Assembly: GCF_001567585.1 (NCBI RefSeq) | Contig: NZ_LRQV01000021.1 | Location: 1-64,000 of the forward strand | Source: Micromonospora rosaria | Lineage (GTDB): Bacteria > Actinomycetota > Actinomycetes > Mycobacteriales > Micromonosporaceae | DNA: 64,000 nucleotides | Direction: 5' to 3' | Shown: positions 3,535-14,611 of the stretch, piece by piece | How the letters are laid out: every line of letters begins with the position of its first letter | How positions within the stretch are numbered: position 1 is the stretch's first letter | Notes under the pieces: model-generated | Databases searched by the model: none | Told to the model about the DNA's origin: nothing | What the model saw: only the letters and a program-made list of their open reading frames with translations | Translations under genes and position numbers: made by a program

Positions 3535-4284
3535 TCACCCGGCGGCGGCCCGCAGGCGGCCCCGGGCCACCAGCTCGACGGTCAGGAAGACGGCGACCGC
3601 CTCGACGGCGAGCAGGCCGACCAGGACGAACAGTTGGGTGATCCCGGCGGCCAGCGGGCTCGCGCCGCCGAGCAGCACCCCGACGAAGGCGCCGGGCAGG
3701 GTCACCAGGCCCACCGTGCGGGTCTGGTCGAGCGCCGGGACCAGCGCCTGGGCGGCGGCGGGCCGGCAGACGAGCAGGACCGCGTCCCGGGGCGTCAGGC
3801 CCAGGGCGAGGGCCGCCTCGACCTCGCCGCGCCGGGTGGCGACCTCGTCCAGGGACCGCCGCCCGGCCAGCGAGGTGGCGGTCATCGCGCCGCCGATGAG
3901 GATGCCCGCGACCGGGATGATCGCGATCCCGCGCAGCGGGACCACCCCCGCCAGCAGCAGCCCGCCCACCACCGACAGGCTGCCGACCAGGATCGGCACC
4001 CCCACCCACCAGCCCCGGCGGCTCCCGGTGACGCGGCGGGCGGAGGTGACCGTCGCCACCGCGCACATCACCGTCACGAAGGCGGCGGTGGCCCACAGCG
4101 AGGCCACGATCGCGGCGATCAGCAGCGACACGGCGGCCAGTTGCGCCGCGGCCCGGCCCGCCGCGACCGCGATCTGCCGCCCGTGCCCCAGCCGGCCGAG
4201 GGTCGCCACCGCCGCCGCGGCGGCGGTGAGCACGACCAGGGCCACCGCCAGCTTCGGACCGACCACCAGCATCGTCGAGGACAT
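3535..4284 (-). CDS. fetB: FetB-like (UPF0014) ABC transporter permease
   Basis: A 249-residue membrane protein with about seven hydrophobic segments. The family signature is clear in the middle: GILIGGAMTATSLAGRRSLDEV, then RRGEVEAALALGLTPRDAV and LVTLPGAFVGVLLGGASPLAAGI. These match the UPF0014/FetB permeases, of which E. coli FetAB exports iron or responds to oxidative stress. The ATPase partner FetA normally sits beside it; here the flanks are the luciferase-hemerythrin gene (convergent) and the DUF4956 operon (divergent), so the permease looks orphaned. Substrate assignment rests only on the family. ATG 4284 gives the full conserved N-terminus. Confidence 0.8.
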   Translation of the reverse strand: MSSTMLVVGPKLAVALVVLTAAAAAVATLGRLGHGRQIAVAAGRAAAQLAAVSLLIAAIVASLWATAAFVTVMCAVATVTSARRVTGSRRGWWVGVPILVGSLSVVGGLLLAGVVPLRGIAIIPVAGILIGGAMTATSLAGRRSLDEVATRRGEVEAALALGLTPRDAVLLVCRPAAAQALVPALDQTRTVGLVTLPGAFVGVLLGGASPLAAGITQLFVLVGLLAVEAVAVFLTVELVARGRLRAAAG

Positions 4285-4728
4285 CCCGACAGTCTGTCCC
4301 GCGCGGTCGCGGCGCGGGCCGGGACGGACCGGTTCCGCCGCTGCGAGACGCCGTACGGATGGTGCCGGCGCGGGCGCGGGAGAAGCGCGCGGGCGCGGGC
4401 CGGCGACCGACCGTCGCGCTGACCGAACCGAAACTTTCGGATTCGGATAGCGCCACCTCGACCACGCTCACGGTGATCGAAGCGCGCTGAACAGCCACGA
4501 CACCATCCACTCTCGCGCCTGAACCGCGATGTTAACGTTCGCATAATTGGCCTGCCACGCCCTGCACGGCATTGACGGGCGACAATTTAACGGATTACCT
4601 TTTTCCGGGGAGTTCCCGAAAATTCACCGAAAGTATCGGCCACGTTCGGCTTCTGCGCGCGGATTCGTCCCGGGACGGTGTACCCCGGCGCCGCGTGACC
4701 CGACGACGACCTGGGAGGAAGGTACGAG
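4285..4728. promoter_or_regulatory. Operator-rich control region of the DUF4956-VTC-CotH operon
   Basis: This 444-base gap holds no gene. It contains a perfect palindrome CCGAAACTTTCGG (4428-4440), a LacI-like palindrome TGTTAACGTTCGCA (4530-4543), and a promoter TTGACG (4572-4577) / TACCTT (4596-4601) with an 18-base spacer. A second near-palindrome, CCGAAAGTATCGG (4627-4639), lies just downstream of the predicted transcription start. The two CCGAAA boxes are 199 bp apart and related boxes occur in front of the CE15 gene. Control by a LacI-type repressor is inferred. Confidence 0.6.
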
Positions 4729-5331
4729 ATGTCGCAGCTCGTCCTGTTCGCCATTGACATCTGCGCGGTGGTGCTACTCGTCTTCGGGCTCTACTTCCCC
4801 CGGCACCGCCGTCGGGACCTCGTCGTCGCCTACCTGGGGGTCAACGTCGGCGTCCTCGCCGTGGCGAGCGCGCTGAGCGCCAGCAATGTCGGCGCCGGGC
4901 TCGGGCTCGGGCTGGCGCTGTTCGGCGTGCTGTCCATCATCCGCCTCCGGTCGACCGAGCTCGACCAGCACGAGGTCGCGTACTACTTCTCCGCCCTCGC
5001 CCTGGGCATCCTCGGCGCGTTGAGCACCACCTCGGTATGGCTCAGCGCCGGCCTGATGGCGCTCATCCTCGCGGTGATGTACCTCGGCGACCACCGGCGG
5101 CTGCTGCGCCACTACCGGCACCAGATCCTGGTGCTCGACTCGGCCGTCACCGATCACGTCGCGCTCGTCGCCCAGGTGGAGCAGCTGCTCAACGCCCGGG
5201 TGCACGCCGCCACCGTCCAGCGGCTCGACCTGGTCAACGAGACCACCGTGGTCGACGTCCGGTACTCGGTCGCCGGCCGGGGCCTGACCGCCGGGGCCGG
5301 CAGACCCGCGCAGGCCGGAGCGCACCGGTGA
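4729..5331 (+). CDS. DUF4956 membrane protein
   Basis: A 200-residue protein starting at ATG 4729 after a GGGAGGAAGG site. The first 125 residues hold about four hydrophobic segments; the motif GLALFGVLSIIRLRSTELDQHEVAYYF is typical of DUF4956, with an Arg-rich cytoplasmic turn. The last 70 residues are soluble and look like a small alpha/beta domain (VEQLLNARVHAATVQRLDLV). Its biochemical role is unknown. It is first in an operon with a VTC-domain protein (overlapping by GTGA) and a CotH protein. As I recall, these three families commonly occur together in bacteria, so it probably forms the membrane part of that system. Confidence 0.82.
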   Translation: MSQLVLFAIDICAVVLLVFGLYFPRHRRRDLVVAYLGVNVGVLAVASALSASNVGAGLGLGLALFGVLSIIRLRSTELDQHEVAYYFSALALGILGALSTTSVWLSAGLMALILAVMYLGDHRRLLRHYRHQILVLDSAVTDHVALVAQVEQLLNARVHAATVQRLDLVNETTVVDVRYSVAGRGLTAGAGRPAQAGAHR

Positions 5332-6161
5332 ACCCGCCGAGCGTCGCGTCGGCGCTGGCCGCGCTGGACCCGGTGGGGCTGACCGAGCTGATCGACCGGG
5401 CCGCCCTGCAGACCAGGGTGGACCGCAAGTACGTCGTCGCGGTGGCCGACCTGCCGGACCTGCTGGACCGGCTCACCCCGTACGCCCGGGTGCTGGACAT
5501 CGACGGCGAACGCGAGTTCCGCTACGAGTCGGTGTACTTCGACACCCCCTGGCTGGCCAGCTACCACTGCGCGGCGTACCGGCGGCGCCGGCGGTTCAAG
5601 GTGCGCACCCGCACCTACCTCGACTCGGCCCAGTGCTGGCTGGAGGTCAAGCTCAGCGGGGCGCGGGGCACCGTCACCAAGCACCGGCTGCCGTACCGGC
5701 CGCAGGACCGCGACACGGTGGGCCCGGGGCGCGGCTTCGTCGACGCGGCGCTCACGCGCGAGCAGATCCACCCGACCGCCGGCGGCACCCTCGTCCCGTC
5801 GCTGGTCACCGGCTACCGCCGGGCCACCCTGCTGCTGCCCACCACCGCGAGCCGGGTCACCATCGACACCGGGCTCACCTGGCGGCACGGCCCCACCACG
5901 CTGCACCTGCCGGACCTCGCCGTGGTCGAGACCAAGACCAGCGCGGTCGCCTCACCGGTCGACCGCCTGCTCTGGCAACGCGGGACGAGACCCGCCCGGA
6001 TCTCGAAGTACGCCACCGGGCTGGCCGCTCTCCGTCCGGAACTGCCGGACGTGCCGTGGCGGCGGACGCTACGCCGCCACTTCCACGCCGCGACCTCTGC
6101 GGCGGGCACCACCACACCGGCCACCACCCCTCGACACGAACAGGAGGCATCGTGCGTATGA
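5328..6161 (+). CDS. VTC-domain (polyphosphate polymerase-like) protein
   Basis: A 277-residue protein whose GTG start (5328) overlaps the previous stop by four bases, implying translational coupling. It has the triphosphate-tunnel features of VTC domains: RVDRKYVV near residue 25, a basic strand run (YRRRRRFKVRTRTY), CWLEVKLSGARG, VVETKT and RISKYATGLA near the end. Yeast Vtc4 uses this fold to make polyphosphate from ATP. In bacteria the domain usually lies next to DUF4956 and CotH genes, as here, and the true substrate is not established. No transmembrane segment is visible, so it should be cytoplasmic and probably acts beside the DUF4956 membrane protein. Confidence 0.85.
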   Translation: MNPPSVASALAALDPVGLTELIDRAALQTRVDRKYVVAVADLPDLLDRLTPYARVLDIDGEREFRYESVYFDTPWLASYHCAAYRRRRRFKVRTRTYLDSAQCWLEVKLSGARGTVTKHRLPYRPQDRDTVGPGRGFVDAALTREQIHPTAGGTLVPSLVTGYRRATLLLPTTASRVTIDTGLTWRHGPTTLHLPDLAVVETKTSAVASPVDRLLWQRGTRPARISKYATGLAALRPELPDVPWRRTLRRHFHAATSAAGTTTPATTPRHEQEASCV

Positions 6162-8239
6162 CCGTCCGCAGTACCGGCGTCGCGACGGCGACCGCCCGCA
6201 CCGCACGGGTCGCGGCAGCAGCCCTGCTGGTCGCCGGGCTCCTCGTCCCCGGCTCGCCACCGGCGGGCGCCGAACCGGCCGCCGGCTCCGTGCCCACCAC
6301 CGGCACCGTCCCCACCGGCGCGACCCCCGACGCCGCCGAGGCAGCCGCCGCGGCCGAGGACCTGGTCGGCGACATCACCTTCTCCGTGCCCAGCGGCACC
6401 TTCCAGGGGGAGGTCACGGTGTCGCTGGGCACCACGGTCAGCGGCGCGCAGATCCGGTACACCACCGACGGGCGGCTCCCCACCGTCCAGTCGCCGCTCT
6501 ACCCGGGCAGCCCGCTGCGGTTCACCCGCACCACCCAACTTCGGGCGCAGGCCTTCGTCGGACAGACGGCCTCCGGAGCGCCCGGGACCGCCATGTACGT
6601 CGCCCGCGCCTCCGCCACCGCCCATGACCTGCCGGTGATTCTGATCGACTCGTACGGCGCGGGTCGGCCCGACCGCGAGTACCTCGACGCCGCCACCATG
6701 ATCTTCCAGCCCGGGGGCGGCAGCACGACGTCGCTGGCCGCCGCCCCGGCGGTCGCCACCCGGGCCGGATTCCGGCTGCGCGGGCAGTCGTCGTCGACGT
6801 TCGACAAGACGCCGTACCGCCTCGAGTTCTGGGACAACGAGGACGACGACGCCGACCACCCTGTGCTGGGCATGCCCGCCGACTCCGACTGGGTGCTGCG
6901 CGGCCCGTTCACCGACAAGGCGCTGATCCGGGAGGCCCTCGTCTACGACGTCGGACGCGAGATGGGGCTGCCGGCCCCCCGGTACGCGTTCGCGGAGTTC
7001 TATCTGAACACCGACGCGGGACCGGTGGGCGCGGACGACTACATGGGCGTCTACATGATCGTCGAGACGATCAAGAACTCGAAGAACCGGCTCGACCTCA
7101 AGCAGTTGCGTGAGGGCGACCGGACCCTGCCCCGGATCACCGGCGGATACATCTGGAAGTTCGAGTGGATGGCCGCCGAGGAGCCGACGCTGCCGTGCAC
7201 CGGCCCCGCCGCCACCTGCTGGAACTACCTGGAAGTGGCCGACCCGTCACCGCTGCAACCCGAGCAGCGCGACTGGTTGCGCAGCCACATCCAGCAGTTC
7301 CACGACGTGCTGCGGGCACCGAACTTCGCCGATCCGGTCAGCGGCTACCGAGCGTACATCGACGTCGACTCCTTCGTGGACCAGTTGATCGTCAACGAGC
7401 TGAGCCGCGAGATGGACTCGTACATCCGCAGCGCGTACTTCTACAAGGACCGGGACAGCAAGATCTTCGCCGGTCCGCTCTGGGACTACGACCTCACCTT
7501 CGGGGTGGGCGGGTTCTTCGGCAACGACCAGATCGCCGGCTGGCAGCACCAGCAGACCCGCCAGCCCCTGGGCAACGACTGGTTCACCCAGTTGCTGCAC
7601 GACCCGGCCTTCGTCAACCAGGTCCGGGCGCGCTGGCAGGCACTGCGTCGCGGCCTGCTCTCCGACGCCGCCCTGCGCACCCGGATCGACACCCTCACCG
7701 CGCCGCTGACCAACGCCGCCCAGCGCAACTTCCAGCGCTGGCCCAACCTGACGACGCCGATGATCGGCTACTTCTTCACTCCGACCGCTCCCACCTGGCA
7801 GGGCCAGGTGCAGTTCATGCGGGACTGGATGCTGCGCCGCGCGGCGTGGCTGGACTCGACCGCCGGCTGGGGCGGCCCGGTCACCACACCACCGCCCACC
7901 CCGACGCCCACCGCCACGACGCCCCCGCCGACGGGCGGGGCCGGCTGTACCGCGACGTACGCCGTGACCAGCCAGTGGACCGGCGGGTTCCAGGGCGAGG
8001 TACGGGTCACCGCGGGCACCTCCGCGATCAACGGCTGGACCGTGACCTGGACATTCGGCGCCGGACAGACGATCACCCAGGTGTGGAACGCGACCGTCAC
8101 CAGCCAGGGCTCGACGGTCACCGCCCGGAACGTCACCTACAACGGCACACTCGCCGCCAGGGCCAGCACGACGTTCGGGTTCCTCGGGTCGTCCTCCGGC
8201 GCGCCGAGCACACCGACCCTGACCTGCACGGCGAGCTGA
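6158..8239 (+). CDS. Secreted CotH-kinase protein with chitobiase-like domain and C-terminal CBM2
   Basis: A 693-residue protein. ATG 6158 overlaps the previous stop (ATGA); GTG 6152, closer to AGGAGG (6142-6147), is an alternative. Residues 1-45 are a signal peptide. Residues about 70-135 match the chitobiase C-terminal-like domain (IRYTTDGRLPTVQSPLY). Residues about 157-567 are the CotH kinase domain (RLRGQSSSTFDKTPYRLEFW, DSDWVLRGPFTDKALIREAL, then IFAGPLWDYDLTFG). A TPT linker leads to a CBM2 cellulose-binding module (596-693, start CTATYAVTSQWTGGFQGEV). CotH proteins are atypical kinases that phosphorylate secreted proteins. The CBM2 suggests this one acts outside the cell on, or bound to, cellulose. 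Third gene of the DUF4956-VTC operon. Confidence 0.87.
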   Translation: MTVRSTGVATATARTARVAAAALLVAGLLVPGSPPAGAEPAAGSVPTTGTVPTGATPDAAEAAAAAEDLVGDITFSVPSGTFQGEVTVSLGTTVSGAQIRYTTDGRLPTVQSPLYPGSPLRFTRTTQLRAQAFVGQTASGAPGTAMYVARASATAHDLPVILIDSYGAGRPDREYLDAATMIFQPGGGSTTSLAAAPAVATRAGFRLRGQSSSTFDKTPYRLEFWDNEDDDADHPVLGMPADSDWVLRGPFTDKALIREALVYDVGREMGLPAPRYAFAEFYLNTDAGPVGADDYMGVYMIVETIKNSKNRLDLKQLREGDRTLPRITGGYIWKFEWMAAEEPTLPCTGPAATCWNYLEVADPSPLQPEQRDWLRSHIQQFHDVLRAPNFADPVSGYRAYIDVDSFVDQLIVNELSREMDSYIRSAYFYKDRDSKIFAGPLWDYDLTFGVGGFFGNDQIAGWQHQQTRQPLGNDWFTQLLHDPAFVNQVRARWQALRRGLLSDAALRTRIDTLTAPLTNAAQRNFQRWPNLTTPMIGYFFTPTAPTWQGQVQFMRDWMLRRAAWLDSTAGWGGPVTTPPPTPTPTATTPPPTGGAGCTATYAVTSQWTGGFQGEVRVTAGTSAINGWTVTWTFGAGQTITQVWNATVTSQGSTVTARNVTYNGTLAARASTTFGFLGSSSGAPSTPTLTCTAS

Positions 8240-8527: not shown

Positions 8528-10168
8528 CTACCTGGCAGCGCAGGTGGCTGTCATTGCGGTCCCGGTGCCGGTGCCCTGGAAGCCGAACTCGGTCGACTGG
8601 CCGGGTGCGAGGGAGCCGTTGTAGGCGACGTTGGTGAACCGCACCGTGCCGGTGGTCCCACTGCCGGTGGCGTTCCAGGCGTTGGTGACGCCGGCACCCG
8701 ACGGCAGGAGCGCCGTCACCGTCCAGCCGGTGACCGGCGACGCACCGGCGGTGACCCGTACCGTGGCGACGAAGCCGCCCGTCCACTGGTTGACCGACAC
8801 CGATGCCGAGCAGCCATCGCCCGCCGGCGGCGTGGTCGGCGGCGTCGTCGGCGGCGTCGTGGGCGGCGTGGTCGGCGGCGTCGTGGGCGGCGTGGTCGGG
8901 CCGTCGGTGAGGGTGGGGGTCTGCCAGTCCCGCCACTCGGACAGGTTGCCCGCCGCCCGGCTGGAGATCCTGATCGTGCCGGGCGTGTTTGCCGTCTTCG
9001 ACAGGAACTTCTGGATGTGTTGCTGCAACGGGGTCCGCCACTCGGGGCGGACCGCGCAGTGGTTGCCGTCCTGGACGTCCGACCAGTAGGTGAGGTTGTC
9101 ACCCGCGCCGAGCGCCCGGTAGACCTCCGCGCCGCCGAGCGCCGCCACACTGGAGGAGCGCGGCGCCAGCCAGGCGATGTGCGGATTGTCCATGACGAAC
9201 AGCCCCCGGGGTGCCACCATGGCGACGATCTGGTGGGTGTCCACCGGCAGGGTGTTCGGGCTGCCGGTGAAGGCGCCGAACGCGTCACCCAGCCACGGCT
9301 GCTCCCCGTAGGCGCTGCTCAACGGCTGGGCACCGGACTCGCCGGGCAACCCGCGGTAGATGGGAGCGCCGGCGCTGCCCGACTCGATCGGCATGGTCAG
9401 CGCGATGCGCTGGTCGAACGCGCCGGTGACGAAGGCACCCTTGCCGTAGCGGGAGCAGCCCGTGACGCCGGTGGCGTCCCCCCGGAGGATGTCGCCGCCG
9501 GACTGCTCGATGACGTCGATGATCCGGCTCACCCCCCAGGCCCAGGCGAGGAGCAGCCCGGTGCTGCTCGACGAGCCGTAGAGGCTGTAGAAGGCACCCT
9601 GTTTGTTGCTGCGTGGAGTGCCCTCCCGGCCCACCGCGAGGGGGTCGTAGGTGACGACGGCGGCACCGGCGGACCTGATGGTGGTCGTGTCCGCCCCGAA
9701 CCCGCCCAGCACGACGACGACCGGGAACGGCCCGTTCCCGCTGGGCAGGCTGACCCCGGCGGAGAAGCTGGCGTTCCTGCCGTTGTGCGTCACGTTCACG
9801 GTGACAGTGCTCCTCGACACCGTTCCCGTGACGGTGGCCGGTTTGGCGGGCTTCTCGCCGTAGACGTACCGCTCCGCCAGTTCCCTGATCTCCGCCCGGC
9901 GGCACCGCCAGTCCGACGTGGTGGCGATCCGGGTGCCGTCGAGCTTCCGGAAGGGGTCGGGCAGGCGGGGGTTGGCCGCCAGTGAGCCCGGGAGGGAGAC
10001 CGGGCAGTCCGCGCCCTCGTCCTCGACGGAGGCGGCGGCGGGGCCGTCGGCGGCCCGGGCGGCGGTGGTGGTGGCGACCGCCGTCACCGCTGCGGCGGCG
10101 GTGAGCGCCGTGACCGCCAGCGCGACGACCGTCGAGCGGATCCGAGAGCGGCCCGAGGTGATGACCAT
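8528..10168 (-). CDS. Secreted glucuronoyl esterase (CE15) with C-terminal CBM2
   Basis: A 546-residue protein starting at ATG 10168 after an AAGGAGAG site. Residues 1-40 are a signal peptide. The catalytic domain (about 50-400) has the CE15 nucleophile motif GVTGCSRYGKGAF near residue 235 and a late histidine in DGNHCAV near 369. A TTPP-repeat linker (about 423-447, encoded around 8829-8900) joins a CBM2 module (450-546, SVSVNQWTGGFVATVRVTAG). CE15 enzymes cut ester bonds between lignin alcohols and the glucuronic acid of xylan, freeing hemicellulose from lignin. Expression is probably governed by the operator-like boxes upstream, which resemble those of the CotH operon. It is a single-gene unit. 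Confidence 0.9.
   Translation of the reverse strand: MVITSGRSRIRSTVVALAVTALTAAAAVTAVATTTAARAADGPAAASVEDEGADCPVSLPGSLAANPRLPDPFRKLDGTRIATTSDWRCRRAEIRELAERYVYGEKPAKPATVTGTVSRSTVTVNVTHNGRNASFSAGVSLPSGNGPFPVVVVLGGFGADTTTIRSAGAAVVTYDPLAVGREGTPRSNKQGAFYSLYGSSSSTGLLLAWAWGVSRIIDVIEQSGGDILRGDATGVTGCSRYGKGAFVTGAFDQRIALTMPIESGSAGAPIYRGLPGESGAQPLSSAYGEQPWLGDAFGAFTGSPNTLPVDTHQIVAMVAPRGLFVMDNPHIAWLAPRSSSVAALGGAEVYRALGAGDNLTYWSDVQDGNHCAVRPEWRTPLQQHIQKFLSKTANTPGTIRISSRAAGNLSEWRDWQTPTLTDGPTTPPTTPPTTPPTTPPTTPPTTPPAGDGCSASVSVNQWTGGFVATVRVTAGASPVTGWTVTALLPSGAGVTNAWNATGSGTTGTVRFTNVAYNGSLAPGQSTEFGFQGTGTGTAMTATCAAR
8829..8900 (-). repeat. TTPP-coding 12-base tandem repeat (linker)
   Basis: Tandem 12-base units coding Thr-Thr-Pro-Pro make the flexible linker between the esterase and CBM2 domains. 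It is a coding microsatellite, not a CRISPR array. Confidence 0.7.
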
Positions 10169-10545
10169 CAGGGCTCTCCTTTCCAGGAGATGTGGGGGTG
10201 GTGGTGGAATCTGGTGCGGCGAGCGGCACCAACGAGTTTCGGAAAATATCGGAAACTCGATGCGGAAACAGTAATCATATTAATCGTTAAGCGTCAATGT
10301 TCTTATGTCGCGACGACGTCGGCTCCGCTGACCCGTGACCCGGGCGACGAGCCGCGTCACGACTCGTGCCGCAGGCCAGCAGGGGCTGCGCGGCAGCGTC
10401 GGGGCGGCCCCAGCGGAACACGGCCGAAACTATCGGTGTCGATGAGTTCCCGCCGCCGGTGGGCCGTCGGGACCGCCGGCGGAGCGTCGACCCGTTCCCG
10501 GCAGCGGGCCCGTGTCGTGTCGTACCCGGGCGGTAGGTTCCCCGG
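10169..10545. promoter_or_regulatory. CE15 promoter with palindromic operator, and divergent leaderless promoter
   Basis: On the minus strand TTGACG (10292-10297) and TACTGT (10268-10273), 18 bases apart, form a good promoter. A 25-bp palindrome (10234-10258; arms GAGTTTC and GAAACTC) lies just downstream of the predicted start and contains a CCGATA/CCGAAA-type core. A second box, CCGAAACTATCGG, sits at 10424-10436, 184 bp away. On the plus strand TAGGTT (10534-10539) lies six bases before the GTG at 10546, the usual spacing for leaderless actinobacterial transcripts. No gene is visible in this gap. Confidence 0.6.
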
Positions 10546-11706
10546 GTGACCGACATCGACACCGGGCGGTTCGCCACGTTGCTGCACGCCTACGGGCGGG
10601 CCACCGACACCCCCGGGCACCTGGCCGCACTCGCCGGCGGCGACGCGGCCAGCCGGAACGCGGCGCTGGAGCACCTCTGGTCGGCCGTGATCCACCAGGG
10701 CACACCGTGGACGGCGACGCCGCCCGCCGCTGCCGCCGTCGCCGCGCTGATCAACGACCCGCGCCTCTGCGGCGCCGCCGACGCGGCGCTGCGGGCGAAC
10801 CTGCTCTCCTTCCTCGCAGCCGTCGCCGAGAGCGGCCGGTCGTCCCCCGAGCTCGCCGACCTCGCCGATCCGGCCGGCGTCGACGTGGACGCCGCCCTGG
10901 TCGCCGCGCTCGACGCGGGCGACGAGGACGAGGTCTTCGCCGACGAGGTGCTGGCCAACGCGCTGTACGCCCGCGCCGTGCTCGGCTGCCGGGACGTCGT
11001 CCCCACCGTGCTCGACGCGGCCACGGCCGCGCTGGCCGACCCCGCGCCGACGGTGCGCGCGGCGGCGGCGCACGCGGTGAGCGTCTGCCGTCCGGCGCTG
11101 ACCGGGACGGCCACGATCGCGCGGCGCCTCGACGCCCTGGCCGCCGGGGCGGGGCCGGACGAACGGGCCGCCCTCGTCCTGGCCATGGGCGAGCTCGGCC
11201 TCGCACCGCGCGCGTACCTGGCCGACCCGCATCCGGGGGTGCGGGCCTGCGCCGCCCTGGCGCCCGCCCTGGCCGACGACCCGGTCGCGACCACCGAGAT
11301 CCTCACCGCCCTGGCGGACCCGGTCGCCACCGACGACTGGTTCACCCAGCGCCCGCCCCAGCTCCACAGCCGGATCCGGTTCGCGCTCGTCGACGCGGCG
11401 GTCGCCCGGGTCGACGACCCCGACCGCCTGCTGCCGGCGGCGCTCGCCCTCGCCCCGATCGTCAGCCCGCACACGGTCAGGGGCGACTGGGGAGCGCTGC
11501 TGCGCGCCCTCTTCGCCGGCCGCGCCGACGACCCGCTCTCCCCCGCCCAGCGTCGCTATCTCGGCGCGCTGGTCGACAACGCCGACCTGTGGGACGCCCG
11601 CAACGGCAGCGTCGGCCTGGCGTTCCGCGACGCCGGGCTGCCCCACGACCGGGCGGCCTGCCGCGCCCTGGTCACCGGCAGCGTCCCGGGGCCGCCACCT
11701 CGGTGA
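10546..11706 (+). CDS. HEAT-repeat-like hypothetical protein
   Basis: A 386-residue, almost entirely helical protein very rich in Ala, Leu and Asp. Repeated helix pairs of about 35-45 residues such as AATAALADPAPTVRAAAAHA and AYLADPHPGVRACAALAPAL look like degenerate HEAT or PBS-lyase-type repeats. There is no signal peptide, membrane segment or catalytic motif. It is likely a cytoplasmic protein-protein interaction scaffold; the partner is unknown. GTG 10546 follows a TAGGTT box by six bases, so the transcript may be leaderless. A 13-bp terminator hairpin follows. Confidence 0.72.
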   Translation: MTDIDTGRFATLLHAYGRATDTPGHLAALAGGDAASRNAALEHLWSAVIHQGTPWTATPPAAAAVAALINDPRLCGAADAALRANLLSFLAAVAESGRSSPELADLADPAGVDVDAALVAALDAGDEDEVFADEVLANALYARAVLGCRDVVPTVLDAATAALADPAPTVRAAAAHAVSVCRPALTGTATIARRLDALAAGAGPDERAALVLAMGELGLAPRAYLADPHPGVRACAALAPALADDPVATTEILTALADPVATDDWFTQRPPQLHSRIRFALVDAAVARVDDPDRLLPAALALAPIVSPHTVRGDWGALLRALFAGRADDPLSPAQRRYLGALVDNADLWDARNGSVGLAFRDAGLPHDRAACRALVTGSVPGPPPR

Positions 11707-11791: not shown

Positions 11792-14611
11792 TCAGGTGAA
11801 TGTGAAGTAGGAGCGGTACTGGTAGCCGTCGTCCAGGGTCAGGACGAACTCACGGCAGGTGCCGGCCCAGCTTCCGTCGGTCTTCCAGACGAAGTTGTAC
11901 TGGCCGTTGGCGTTGGCCGACAGGCCCGAGTTGCCGGGGCTGACGGCGGCGACGGGGGTGGGTCGGGGGGTGACGGAGCCGTCGGGGTTGACGGTCCGCA
12001 GGGTGTCGCAGTCGACCAGGCGCGAGTACGGCGAGTTGCTGGCCAGGATGTCCAGGCCCCGGTTGGCGGACAGCGCGAACTTCATCGGTGCGGCGCTGCC
12101 GGCCTTGACGGTGTTGAGGGCCGGCTGGGCGGCGCGGTTGAGGAAGTCACCACCGCAGGACGGGTGGGTGTCGAAGGCCTCGGTGTTGTCGTCCCGGTTG
12201 GTGGTGCCCTGGACGGCGCTGTAGCCGAGACCACGGCGGGCGAAGGAGGCCCACAGGGTGCAGGCGTTCTCGCCACCGGTGAGGGCGGCGTCGGCGGCGA
12301 TGATGGCGTTGCGGCCGGTGACGAAACCGGGGCCGCAGCCCTGCATCTTCAACCCGTCCATCACCAGTTGCATGGCGAGGTTGTTGCCGCCGCTGTTCCA
12401 CGGGCCGTAGACGTTGGGGTTGACCCCGTGCTTGTCGATGAGGTCCCAGGTCATGTCCCACAGCACGGCGGCCCAGCCGTGGCCGATGCCGTGCGGGGCG
12501 GCCAGCGAGGTGCCGTTCAGCCAGCCACCGGTCTTGATGCTGTCGTAGGTGAACGGCTGCTTGTCCATGTCGCGCGAGTACGGCCGGGGGCGCAGGCCGT
12601 TGCCGCTCCGGTCCTCCTGGTAGAGGACGTACGGGACCAGGCCACGGGTGCCCTCGGCGGTGTCGAGCCGCGGGTCGAGCAGCGTGTTGATCGCGAAGAA
12701 GTCGCTCCAGCCCTCACCCATCTGCTCGTTGCCGGTGAGGCAGTTGATGCCCGGCCCGCCGGTGAGCCGCAGCGAGATGCCGTGACCGTACTCGTGGATG
12801 ACGATGCCGGCGTCGAGGTCGCCGTCGCGGATGCCCGGGTGGCTGGGGTGCTTGCGCAGCGAGCCGGTGACCGCGCCGTCGGCGATCGCGGTCTTGAGGG
12901 CGGCCCCGTCGGCCTGGGTCACCGCGACCGCCGGGATGGTGACCGGGGCGGTGGTCATGGCGCCGGTCAGCACCGGCGCGGCCCCGGTGGCGTTGTGCGC
13001 GACCACGACCGCCTTCGCCCCGAGGGACTCGGCGACCTGGGTCCGCAGCAGGTAGGTGCAGGCGGTGGTGCCGCCGTCGACCACCGCGATCCAGCCGCCG
13101 GTCGGCAGCGTGCCGGGGTACGACGAGGCGGCGCAGCCGGTGCCGCCGTAGACGAACCGGTGTCCGGGCAGGCCGGTGGTCGTGGGGGCCGGGCTGAACC
13201 GCGCCCAGGAGGCGTCGAACGAGCCCACGCCGTCGACGACGACCTGGTTCTGCGCGCCGAACTGGTTGCCCGGCCACAGGAACATCTGCATGCGCGGGGC
13301 GCCGCCGTCGGCGGCCGGGGTGGAGAAGTTGGCGTTGTTCGTGCCGGCGCCGTCGGCGGCCTCGGCGCGGACGTAGTCGCCGCCGGTGCCGCCCCGGCCG
13401 TAGTTGTTCACCTGGAAGTTGCCGGACGCCTCGTCGAAGCCGTAGCGGTAGGAGACGTCGTGGATGATGTTGTTCCAGTAGAACAGGTTGGCGGTGGCGG
13501 AGTCCCGGTAGCTCTGCGCGTGCTCGCCCAGGTTGAGCGGGAAGTTGAAGGTCAGGCTCGGGCCGCCGTCCGGGCTGCTGCCGAAGTCGGGCGCGTTGTT
13601 GGCGTCCTGGTCCTGGTAGGCGTGGACGTTGTTGCCCTGGGTGGTGGTGTGCTCCGGGCCCGGGACACCGTCGGTGTCGTGCCAGCCGTACGGCGACGCG
13701 AGGCTGTCCGCCGGGTTGGTCACCGTGGTCCGGGGGCCGTCGTTGGGGCTCTCCGTCGGGTAGCCGAAGACGCGGTAGCTCGACCCGTCCTGGACCGGGT
13801 CGGGCGAGCCGAGCACGGTCGTGGGGGCGGCCAGGGTCCGGCCGGCGACGTGCCCACCGAGGGTGTCGTGGAGGTCGTCCGTCTCGTCGTGGGTGGTCCA
13901 GTCCTCGGCGTCGAGCAGGTCACCGGTCTTCGCGTCGACCGTGGCGTTCCAGAGGTGGCTGTCGGAGGAGTCGTCGATCACGACCTGCCAGGCCAGGCGC
14001 AGCCCGTCCTCGGTGGGCTGCCAGCCGAGCTTGGCGGGGATCGGCTCGTCGGAGATGCCGCTGCCGCTGACGACGGTGCGCTGGGCGGCGCCGCCCGCGC
14101 GGCTCATCACCCGCGGGTTCTTCGGCGCGGCCAGGTCGAGCGCGTCGGCGGCGGCCTCCACCGCGTCGACCGCGTCGAGGTCGGCGGCACCGGAGGGGCT
14201 GACGGCGAGGCCGGAGACGAGGCTGTCGCCGACGAAGACGACGCTGCCGTCCCGGGCGACGTTGACCGTGGCGGCGGCGCCGAACACCTCCCGCTCCTGG
14301 TAGCGCTGGGCGAGGTTGACGTGGGTGACGCCGTTGTGGCGACTGGTGTAGCTGGACAGCACGGCGAGGTCACCGACGTCGGCCGTGGTCACGCCGTGCT
14401 GCTCGGGGTTGCCCCGCAGGTACCGGATGGCGATCTCCTCCGGGCTGCCCTCGTTCGGGCCGGTGAGGAAGATCGGGTTCGATCGGTCGGGGTCGTCCGG
14501 GGCGGCTGCGGCCGGCGTCGCGGCCACGGATGTCAGGGACACGACGAGGGTCGTGGAGAGCAGCAACGCGAGGTTGCGGCGGCCACGGAGGGGGAACGGT
14601 CGGAGGGGCAC
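11792..14611 (-). CDS. Secreted M36 (fungalysin-type) metalloprotease with PA domain
   Basis: A 939-residue protein; GTG 14611 is preferred over an upstream ATG because AAGGAG lies five bases before it and the signal peptide follows directly (residues 1-38, ending AAAA). A propeptide of the FTP type covers about 60-230. The zinc site HEYGH is near residue 604 and the third ligand lies in MGEGWSDFFA near 637, the M36 pattern. A protease-associated domain (about 470-577; GWIAVVDGGTTACTYLLR) is inserted before the zinc helix, as in bacterial M36 proteins. The enzyme should be an extracellular endopeptidase that degrades protein for nutrition. It is a single gene, divergent from the AraC gene. 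Confidence 0.9.
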   Translation of the reverse strand: MPLRPFPLRGRRNLALLLSTTLVVSLTSVAATPAAAAPDDPDRSNPIFLTGPNEGSPEEIAIRYLRGNPEQHGVTTADVGDLAVLSSYTSRHNGVTHVNLAQRYQEREVFGAAATVNVARDGSVVFVGDSLVSGLAVSPSGAADLDAVDAVEAAADALDLAAPKNPRVMSRAGGAAQRTVVSGSGISDEPIPAKLGWQPTEDGLRLAWQVVIDDSSDSHLWNATVDAKTGDLLDAEDWTTHDETDDLHDTLGGHVAGRTLAAPTTVLGSPDPVQDGSSYRVFGYPTESPNDGPRTTVTNPADSLASPYGWHDTDGVPGPEHTTTQGNNVHAYQDQDANNAPDFGSSPDGGPSLTFNFPLNLGEHAQSYRDSATANLFYWNNIIHDVSYRYGFDEASGNFQVNNYGRGGTGGDYVRAEAADGAGTNNANFSTPAADGGAPRMQMFLWPGNQFGAQNQVVVDGVGSFDASWARFSPAPTTTGLPGHRFVYGGTGCAASSYPGTLPTGGWIAVVDGGTTACTYLLRTQVAESLGAKAVVVAHNATGAAPVLTGAMTTAPVTIPAVAVTQADGAALKTAIADGAVTGSLRKHPSHPGIRDGDLDAGIVIHEYGHGISLRLTGGPGINCLTGNEQMGEGWSDFFAINTLLDPRLDTAEGTRGLVPYVLYQEDRSGNGLRPRPYSRDMDKQPFTYDSIKTGGWLNGTSLAAPHGIGHGWAAVLWDMTWDLIDKHGVNPNVYGPWNSGGNNLAMQLVMDGLKMQGCGPGFVTGRNAIIAADAALTGGENACTLWASFARRGLGYSAVQGTTNRDDNTEAFDTHPSCGGDFLNRAAQPALNTVKAGSAAPMKFALSANRGLDILASNSPYSRLVDCDTLRTVNPDGSVTPRPTPVAAVSPGNSGLSANANGQYNFVWKTDGSWAGTCREFVLTLDDGYQYRSYFTFT

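Follow-up and report, generated by a model that had tools for sequence, protein, structure and literature searches.

The window analysed here, a 64,000-nucleotide stretch of the genome of the soil bacterium Micromonospora rosaria, contains an operon of three plus-strand genes encoding a DUF4956 membrane protein, a VTC-family triphosphate-tunnel enzyme and a predicted secreted CotH kinase-like protein, with neighbouring genes sharing four bases each. The DUF4956-VTC pair is the fixed unit of this operon, at least two different genes, one of them CotH, can take the third position, and operator-like palindromes upstream suggest that the operon probably belongs to a xylan regulon. The new findings are that the third gene can be exchanged and that the operator is of a xylan type, whereas the occurrence of the trio at Pel polysaccharide loci was already known. 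The original prediction for this region, a recurrent trio whose exported CotH protein may modify secreted proteins on cellulose, with VTC possibly making or handling polyphosphate, is partly supported.

A conserved DUF4956-VTC pair with an exchangeable partner

The operon encodes the following features:

4729-5331, + strand: DUF4956 membrane protein, 200 amino acids (Pfam DUF4956, 1.2e-57, 194.7 bits, cut-off 30.6)
5328-6161, + strand: VTC/triphosphate-tunnel enzyme, 277 amino acids (Pfam VTC, 9.1e-25, 88 bits, cut-off 23)
6158-8239, + strand: predicted secreted CotH protein, 693 amino acids (gene call and Pfam)
6158-6271, + strand: likely Sec signal peptide of CotH (hydropathy; A-G-A at residues 36-38, cleavage judged by eye)
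6389-6580, + strand: CHB_HEX_C_1 (chitobiase-like) domain of CotH, residues 78-141 (Pfam, 1.8e-15)
6773-7852, + strand: CotH kinase-like domain, residues 206-565 (Pfam, 3.2e-65, 221.2 bits, cut-off 23.8)
7946-8218, + strand: CBM2 module of CotH, residues 597-687, C-terminal to a Pro/Thr linker (Pfam CBM_2, 9.3e-27)

The GTG start of VTC overlaps the TGA stop of DUF4956, and the CotH start joins the VTC stop through an ATGA overlap. With three Pfam matches, these 4-base overlaps and a recurring gene order, the predicted operon is real.

The 150 family genomes searched contain 123 strong DUF4956 hits, 72 of type A, to which the window belongs, and 51 of type B; three weak DUF4956 hits, eight second-half VTC rows and the weaker second-stretch rows of the Cthe_2159 family (52 kept) were dropped before counting. 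VTC is located within 2.5 kb of 122 of the 123 strong hits, and the sole DUF4956 gene without a VTC neighbour (G033:C3) starts approximately 2 kb from a contig end. At the genome level, strong DUF4956 hits occur in 76 genomes, all of which also encode VTC, and VTC occurs in 77. Among type A loci, CotH is present within 6 kb of 27/72 DUF4956 genes (22 downstream on the same strand and five on the opposite strand with a type-B-like CotH), Cthe_2159 (PF14262), which we take to be a beta-helix protein, is present within 5 kb of 30/72, and neither is found near the remaining 15/72. An example Cthe_2159 protein matches PF14262 at 8.9e-87, and 30 of the 52 strong Cthe_2159 hits lie near a DUF4956 gene. 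All 51 type B loci have the order VTC-DUF4956-CotH. In total, CotH or Cthe_2159 is near 108 of the 123 strong DUF4956 loci; beyond these families, the loci compared share no other conserved operon gene. Because VTC adjoins 122 of 123 DUF4956 genes while the third gene varies, the pair is the fixed unit. CotH as an obligate part of the module was rejected, as 45 of the 72 type A DUF4956 genes have no CotH within 6 kb; of 20 of these 45 loci retrieved, 14 encode Cthe_2159. The recurrence of the three families together, as originally proposed, thus holds, but only the DUF4956-VTC pairing is near-obligate and CotH can be replaced.

The 22 same-strand type A trios repeat the gene order of the window, and DUF4956, VTC and CotH (with or without CBM2) also occur together in 38 of the 80 best named loci out of 552 confirmed actinobacterial DUF4956 relatives; since the order repeats in both sets, the trio is not a chance arrangement. 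Among these best 80 of 552, the closest relatives of the window's DUF4956 protein are from Micromonospora and are up to 93% identical. Loci of Micromonospora, Saccharothrix, Microbispora and Plantactinospora mostly contain CotH-CBM2, with three Micromonospora loci containing Cthe_2159, and Streptomyces loci contain CotH, several without CBM2, with two containing Cthe_2159. Most loci of Actinoplanes and Paractinoplanes contain Cthe_2159, as do those of Brachybacterium, Cellulomonas sp. Leaf334 and several Arthrobacter.

In a DUF4956+VTC tree of 102 of 137 loci, obtained with a quick method and with several supports of only 83-92, CotH and Cthe_2159 changed places at least three times, the main group with CotH is nested within rows that have Cthe_2159, and the window sits in a clade of 32 rows (starred in the tree), all with CotH. 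The other 35 loci, which are also outside the operator counts given below, are of type B, have CotH without DUF4956, or have no type A DUF4956+VTC pair called by a simple gene caller (several of these are Arthrobacter, for which the caller fails). Operons of Saccharothrix, Microbispora and Actinosynnema (L104-L106, L111, L115, L118 and L119), with DUF4956 identities of 80-87%, nest inside a Micromonospora-rich clade, which suggests that the operon may have spread by horizontal transfer.

CBM2 is present on 54 of 62 operonic CotH proteins and is therefore standard rather than special to the window; the eight without it fall in seven Streptomyces loci. Two duplicate CotH loci, merged in the operator counts, are still separate in this count. 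Two divergent CotH proteins (L096 and L097) also bear CBM2. We read this as the third protein being repeatedly attached, by prediction, to fibre via CBM2. At one locus of a Dactylosporangium metagenome-assembled genome (L128, 2134-5675), DUF4956 is followed by a Cthe_2159 protein fused to CBM2, with no VTC called between them.

Several further features were observed at these loci. The second, distant trio type (L088-L093; 51 places) has CotH without CBM2 in the six examples retrieved, and those type B CotH proteins whose sequences were displayed start with a hydrophobic segment and contain inserts rich in Gly, Gln and Pro; both trio types can occur within single genomes, for example G001 and G003. 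Five Cthe_2159-type loci (L048, L050, L051, L053 and L059) have a phosphodiester glycosidase (NAGPA) and a GtrA/GT2 protein nearby (one member tested for each), and L048, L050 and L051 also have a response-regulator/histidine-kinase pair, identified by reading the sequence.

Xylan-type operators upstream of the operon

The control region upstream of DUF4956 contains the following elements:

4428-4440, no strand assigned: operator-like palindrome CCGAAACTTTCGG, exact, 301 bp upstream of DUF4956
4572-4601, + strand: probable promoter TTGACG-18-TACCTT; 90% or more of the 24 upstream regions in the alignment keep ATTGAC
4627-4639, no strand assigned: second operator-like palindrome CCGAAAGTATCGG, 102 bp upstream of DUF4956 and differing from the 13-mer at one position

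CCGAAACTTTCGG contains the BxlR-type operator core CGAAACTTTCG, exact at 4429-4439. The operator sequence of BxlR, a xylobiose repressor, is given in the available text of PMC4743123, and a similar motif, CGAANNTTTCG, precedes two xylanase genes in SirexAA-E according to the passages available from PMC12772271. The second palindrome is placed directly downstream of the candidate -10, and the upstream regions of 24 CotH operons including that of the window (11 of the 24 aligned rows printed) share ATTGAC, followed by CGAAA/TTT half-sites past the likely -10. Weaker operator-like copies are present at 10240-10252 and 10424-10436, upstream of a gene for a glucuronoyl esterase with CBM2. Overall, the window contains four sites at two or fewer mismatches compared to 0.76 expected, a number equalled in 1/100 shuffles.

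In the 7.38 Mb genome, the site at 4428 is one of five exact occurrences of CGAAANTTTCG, with none for the reversed 11-mer, and the 13-mer occurs 12 times at one mismatch or fewer, again with none for the reversed pattern. Three of these 12 sites are in the window locus and nine elsewhere, six of the latter at four loci encoding GH10-CBM2//AXE1-GH43, LacI-AXE1//GH3, GH11//GH62 and GH10. The exact 13-mer was found zero to three times in each of 11 related genomes (reversed control, 0). A site is located within 500 bp upstream of DUF4956 in 25/59 CotH operons, in 0/32 Cthe_2159 operons and in 0/9 others (Fisher 2.9e-6, a value inflated by kinship among the loci). At the CotH loci, site density is 1.017 per kb upstream of DUF4956 and 0.0078 per kb in the rest, a difference of approximately 130-fold. 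Because BxlR-type operators lie upstream, other sites of the genome lie at xylan genes and the site is found in 25/59 CotH operons but 0/32 Cthe_2159 operons, the operon is probably part of a xylan regulon. The same regulon probably includes the glucuronoyl-esterase gene, which is outside the operon. The original prediction set CotH on cellulose and calls for correction here: the likely control signal is linked to xylan and not to cellulose alone.

Other observations weigh against this assignment. A generic sigma-70 scan called no promoter upstream of DUF4956, 3/12 genome sites are beside genes with no apparent link to xylan (five flanking genes scanned), 34/59 CotH loci have no site in the 500 bp, and the exact site at 4428 is only 144 bp from a divergent UPF0014 gene, with DUF4956 further away. 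The latter two points would fit sites that arose by chance or serve neighbours such as UPF0014 or the esterase, leaving the trio outside the xylan regulon; given the enrichment upstream of DUF4956 and the absence of the reversed pattern, we consider this very improbable.

The Streptomyces BxlR regulon resembles the sites in the M. rosaria genome in having the same palindrome at GH10, GH11, GH3 and LacI-family genes, as described in the available parts of PMC4743123 and PMC12772271. No description of a VTC-DUF4956-CotH operon as a member of a BxlR regulon was found in the titles, abstracts and passages of the literature searched, and none of a link between the trio and a xylan regulon, or of the replacement by Cthe_2159, at the level of titles and abstracts.

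Features of the encoded proteins

In agreement with the original prediction of an exported CotH protein with a chitobiase-like domain and CBM2, the N-terminus has a Sec-type signal with a hydrophobic peak at residues 20-38 (numbered on a 695-amino-acid gene call) and a likely cut after A38. The CotH family profile PF08757 is covered at positions 2-322 of 322, indicating that the whole domain is present. A Pfam scan of the 693-amino-acid protein identified no dockerin, and the only match in an NCBIfam search was to the CBM2 stretch of an exoglucanase model. Proteins that bind chitin or xylan can bear CBM2 too (the match to ChiC is 4.7e-17), and 'cellulose-binding' is thus a family label rather than an established specificity of this CotH protein. 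The genome carries 38 CBM2 matches, from which we infer that the organism is likely a plant-fibre degrader.

The CotH profile matches structure 5jd9 (2.9e-15), which we take to be CotH of Bacillus cereus. CotH D420 and D443 are the counterparts of B. subtilis D228 and D251, with a spacing of 23 in both proteins, so the catalytic Asp pair is kept and the active site is not lost in this copy. Changing either D228 or D251 inactivates B. subtilis CotH; the substrates named for CotH are proteins of the spore coat, among them CotB, which has Ser-rich repeats (PMC7821199, available passages). K217, D420, D443 and D445 are invariant in 16/16 type A CotH rows; eight more distant rows keep the WD motif and have an Asp pair ahead of a GPG loop, but K217 is not kept.

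The VTC protein has no hydrophobic segment and no signal by hydropathy, and Pfam identified the VTC domain alone, without an SPX domain. Its sequence alone gave no match in PDB, whereas a profile search matched yeast Vtc4 at 2.2e-15. In an alignment of 22 rows, 25 columns are invariant, among them the Lys, Arg and Glu residues of the phosphate tunnel. K34, R93, R95, K108, K118, R165, R176, E201 and K227 align with Vtc4 tunnel residues, presumably K200, R264, R266, K281, K294, R361, R373, E426 and K458, respectively.

DUF4956 has four hydrophobic segments by hydropathy, compared to about five helices in a structure model (pLDDT 78, built from 88 alignment rows; 67 for the first model), where they are followed by a beta-alpha-beta-beta (ACT-like) domain. 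This C-terminal domain is predicted to be cytosolic by the positive-inside rule, judged from loop charges. A Foldseek comparison of the pLDDT 78 model with known folds returned nothing at E ≤ 0.001 (Z under 8), with weak ACT-like matches for the C-terminus and matches to unrelated helical proteins; the profile gave a single PDB match (E 0.42).

Comparison with known systems

CotH, a polyphosphate polymerase, DUF4956 and DUF4832 have been described beside pel genes (PMC7112168, available text), and the trio at the pel locus of Streptococcus intermedius (SIR_1592-1594) has been studied by deletion (PMC12345266, available text). In that study, SIR_1592, which occupies the DUF4956 position, is described as an MgtC-like membrane part with an ACT domain and not by the name DUF4956; the equation of the two is taken from the accessible part of PMC7112168. 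Pel production rose in the SIR_1592 mutant and fell in the CotH mutant, and both aggregated less in 10% ASM (PMC12345266). The available text of this 2025 study also states that the trio arrangement was not found outside pel; in contradiction to this, the trio does occur outside pel loci in actinobacteria. PelG was found in 0/150 genomes, that of the window included, in a search covering PelG only among the pel genes and with a positive control in Thermotoga maritima, and an association of the window operon with Pel was thus rejected. Like the window operon, the pel accessory module combines the same three adjacent families with a secreted CotH, a polyphosphate-polymerase domain and a membrane DUF4956-type protein with an ACT-like end. 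In contrast to it, the window operon lacks pel (PelG), has CBM2 on CotH and xylan-type operators, and belongs to a type in which the third gene can be replaced by Cthe_2159.

The window's CotH shares a profile match and an equivalent Asp pair with the Bacillus spore-coat kinase (5jd9), but is exported, contains CHB_HEX_C_1 and CBM2, and is located beside VTC-DUF4956 in an actinomycete. Cellulosomal CotH proteins such as C. thermocellum CseP are known (PMC6083626 and PMC12484212, available passages). They likewise bring CotH to the plant cell wall, whereas the window's CotH has CBM2 in place of a dockerin and is linked to VTC-DUF4956. The VTC protein shares the tunnel Lys/Arg/Glu residues with yeast Vtc4 (3g3q, 8i6v), but, unlike yeast VTC, has neither SPX nor a detected fused membrane domain and has DUF4956 as its membrane partner. 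Furthermore, NELoc-2 of C. perfringens contains CotH with polyphosphate-polymerase proteins (PMC11677781, available text).

Neighbouring genes

The genes surrounding the operon include:

3535-4284, - strand: UPF0014 gene, diverging from the operon, with the operator at 4428 in the shared upstream region
8528-10168, - strand: glucuronoyl-esterase family protein (GCE_fung) with CBM2, convergent with the operon
10546-11706, + strand: 386-amino-acid protein with no Pfam match at 1e-4; the operator-like site at 10424 is 110 bp upstream of its start
11792-14611, - strand: M36 fungalysin metallopeptidase with a PA domain

Possible function of the operon

With a confidence somewhat below an even chance, we hypothesize that this xylan-regulon operon encodes a membrane-held VTC-DUF4956 phosphate-polymer machine serving a secreted, fibre-bound CotH. 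A LacI-family repressor would release the operon on xylobiose, jointly with xylanases, acetyl-xylan esterases and the glucuronoyl esterase. Cytosolic VTC, held at the membrane by DUF4956, would make a phosphate polymer or a related phospho-product from ATP, which DUF4956 may export or sense, and CotH, bound to fibre through CBM2, would phosphorylate co-secreted proteins or glycan; in other loci, this machine would serve Cthe_2159 instead. ATP is scarce outside the cell, and exported polyphosphate could therefore replace it as the donor for CotH under the xylan switch, with the Cthe_2159 version using the polymer otherwise, e.g. for calcium binding; this more specific version seems quite improbable. 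Several points weigh against the hypothesis as a whole. The activities of all three window proteins are predictions, and export by DUF4956 is a guess because its fold has no informative match. The genome also encodes PPK1, so VTC is dispensable for ordinary polyphosphate. In S. intermedius, deletion of SIR_1593, at the VTC position, left aggregation and Pel production intact (PMC12345266, available text), and a requirement for VTC is thus unproven.

The alternatives differ in what CotH and the pair would do. CotH might be a binding or assembly protein rather than an enzyme, i.e. a CBM2-anchored adhesin or matrix organiser in which the kinase fold is structural. This is unlikely in our view: the carbohydrate-binding nature of the Cthe_2159 family and the CBM2 on most operonic CotH proteins are in line with it, but the invariant Asp pair and Lys217 in all 16 type A rows argue against it, and the proximity of a phosphate-handling enzyme would be left unexplained. 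The secretory xylose kinase Fam20B offers a precedent for CotH as a glycan kinase whose target would be xylan, xylo-oligosaccharide or a polysaccharide of the cell itself instead of protein. The link of the operon to xylan genes would fit this, whereas the lack of any additional conserved gene in the operon would not. Related trios adjoin Pel polysaccharide genes (PMC7112168, available text) and their deletion alters Pel levels, which would also suit a glycan target, but the only substrates named for CotH are spore-coat proteins (PMC7821199, available passages), and we regard this possibility as improbable. The reduced aggregation of the S. intermedius CotH mutant (PMC12345266) is compatible with an adhesin, and a review of cellulosomal CotH suggests a structural role as well as a kinase role (PMC12484212; both sources in part). 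Alternatively, VTC-DUF4956 might serve phosphate or metal homeostasis, whether as a polyphosphate store, as a tripolyphosphatase or through control of the MgtC type, and share the operon only since growth on fibre needs it. The MgtC-like part and ACT domain of SIR_1592 (PMC12345266, available text) and the C-terminal domain of the DUF4956 model point in this direction; the presence of CotH or Cthe_2159 near most strong loci does not, PPK1 could already cover storage, and homeostasis appears improbable to a similar, marginally smaller degree than a glycan kinase.

In these genomes DUF4956 and bacterial VTC, which are without assigned function, form a fixed pair whose secreted partner can be exchanged, and the xylan-type operator on one large branch gives a concrete handle on the function of the trio. 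The published view of pel loci as the sole setting of the trio is corrected. If the hypothesis of a xylan-controlled, fibre-bound CotH is true, it could add secreted phosphorylation to the attack of free-living actinomycetes on plant walls.

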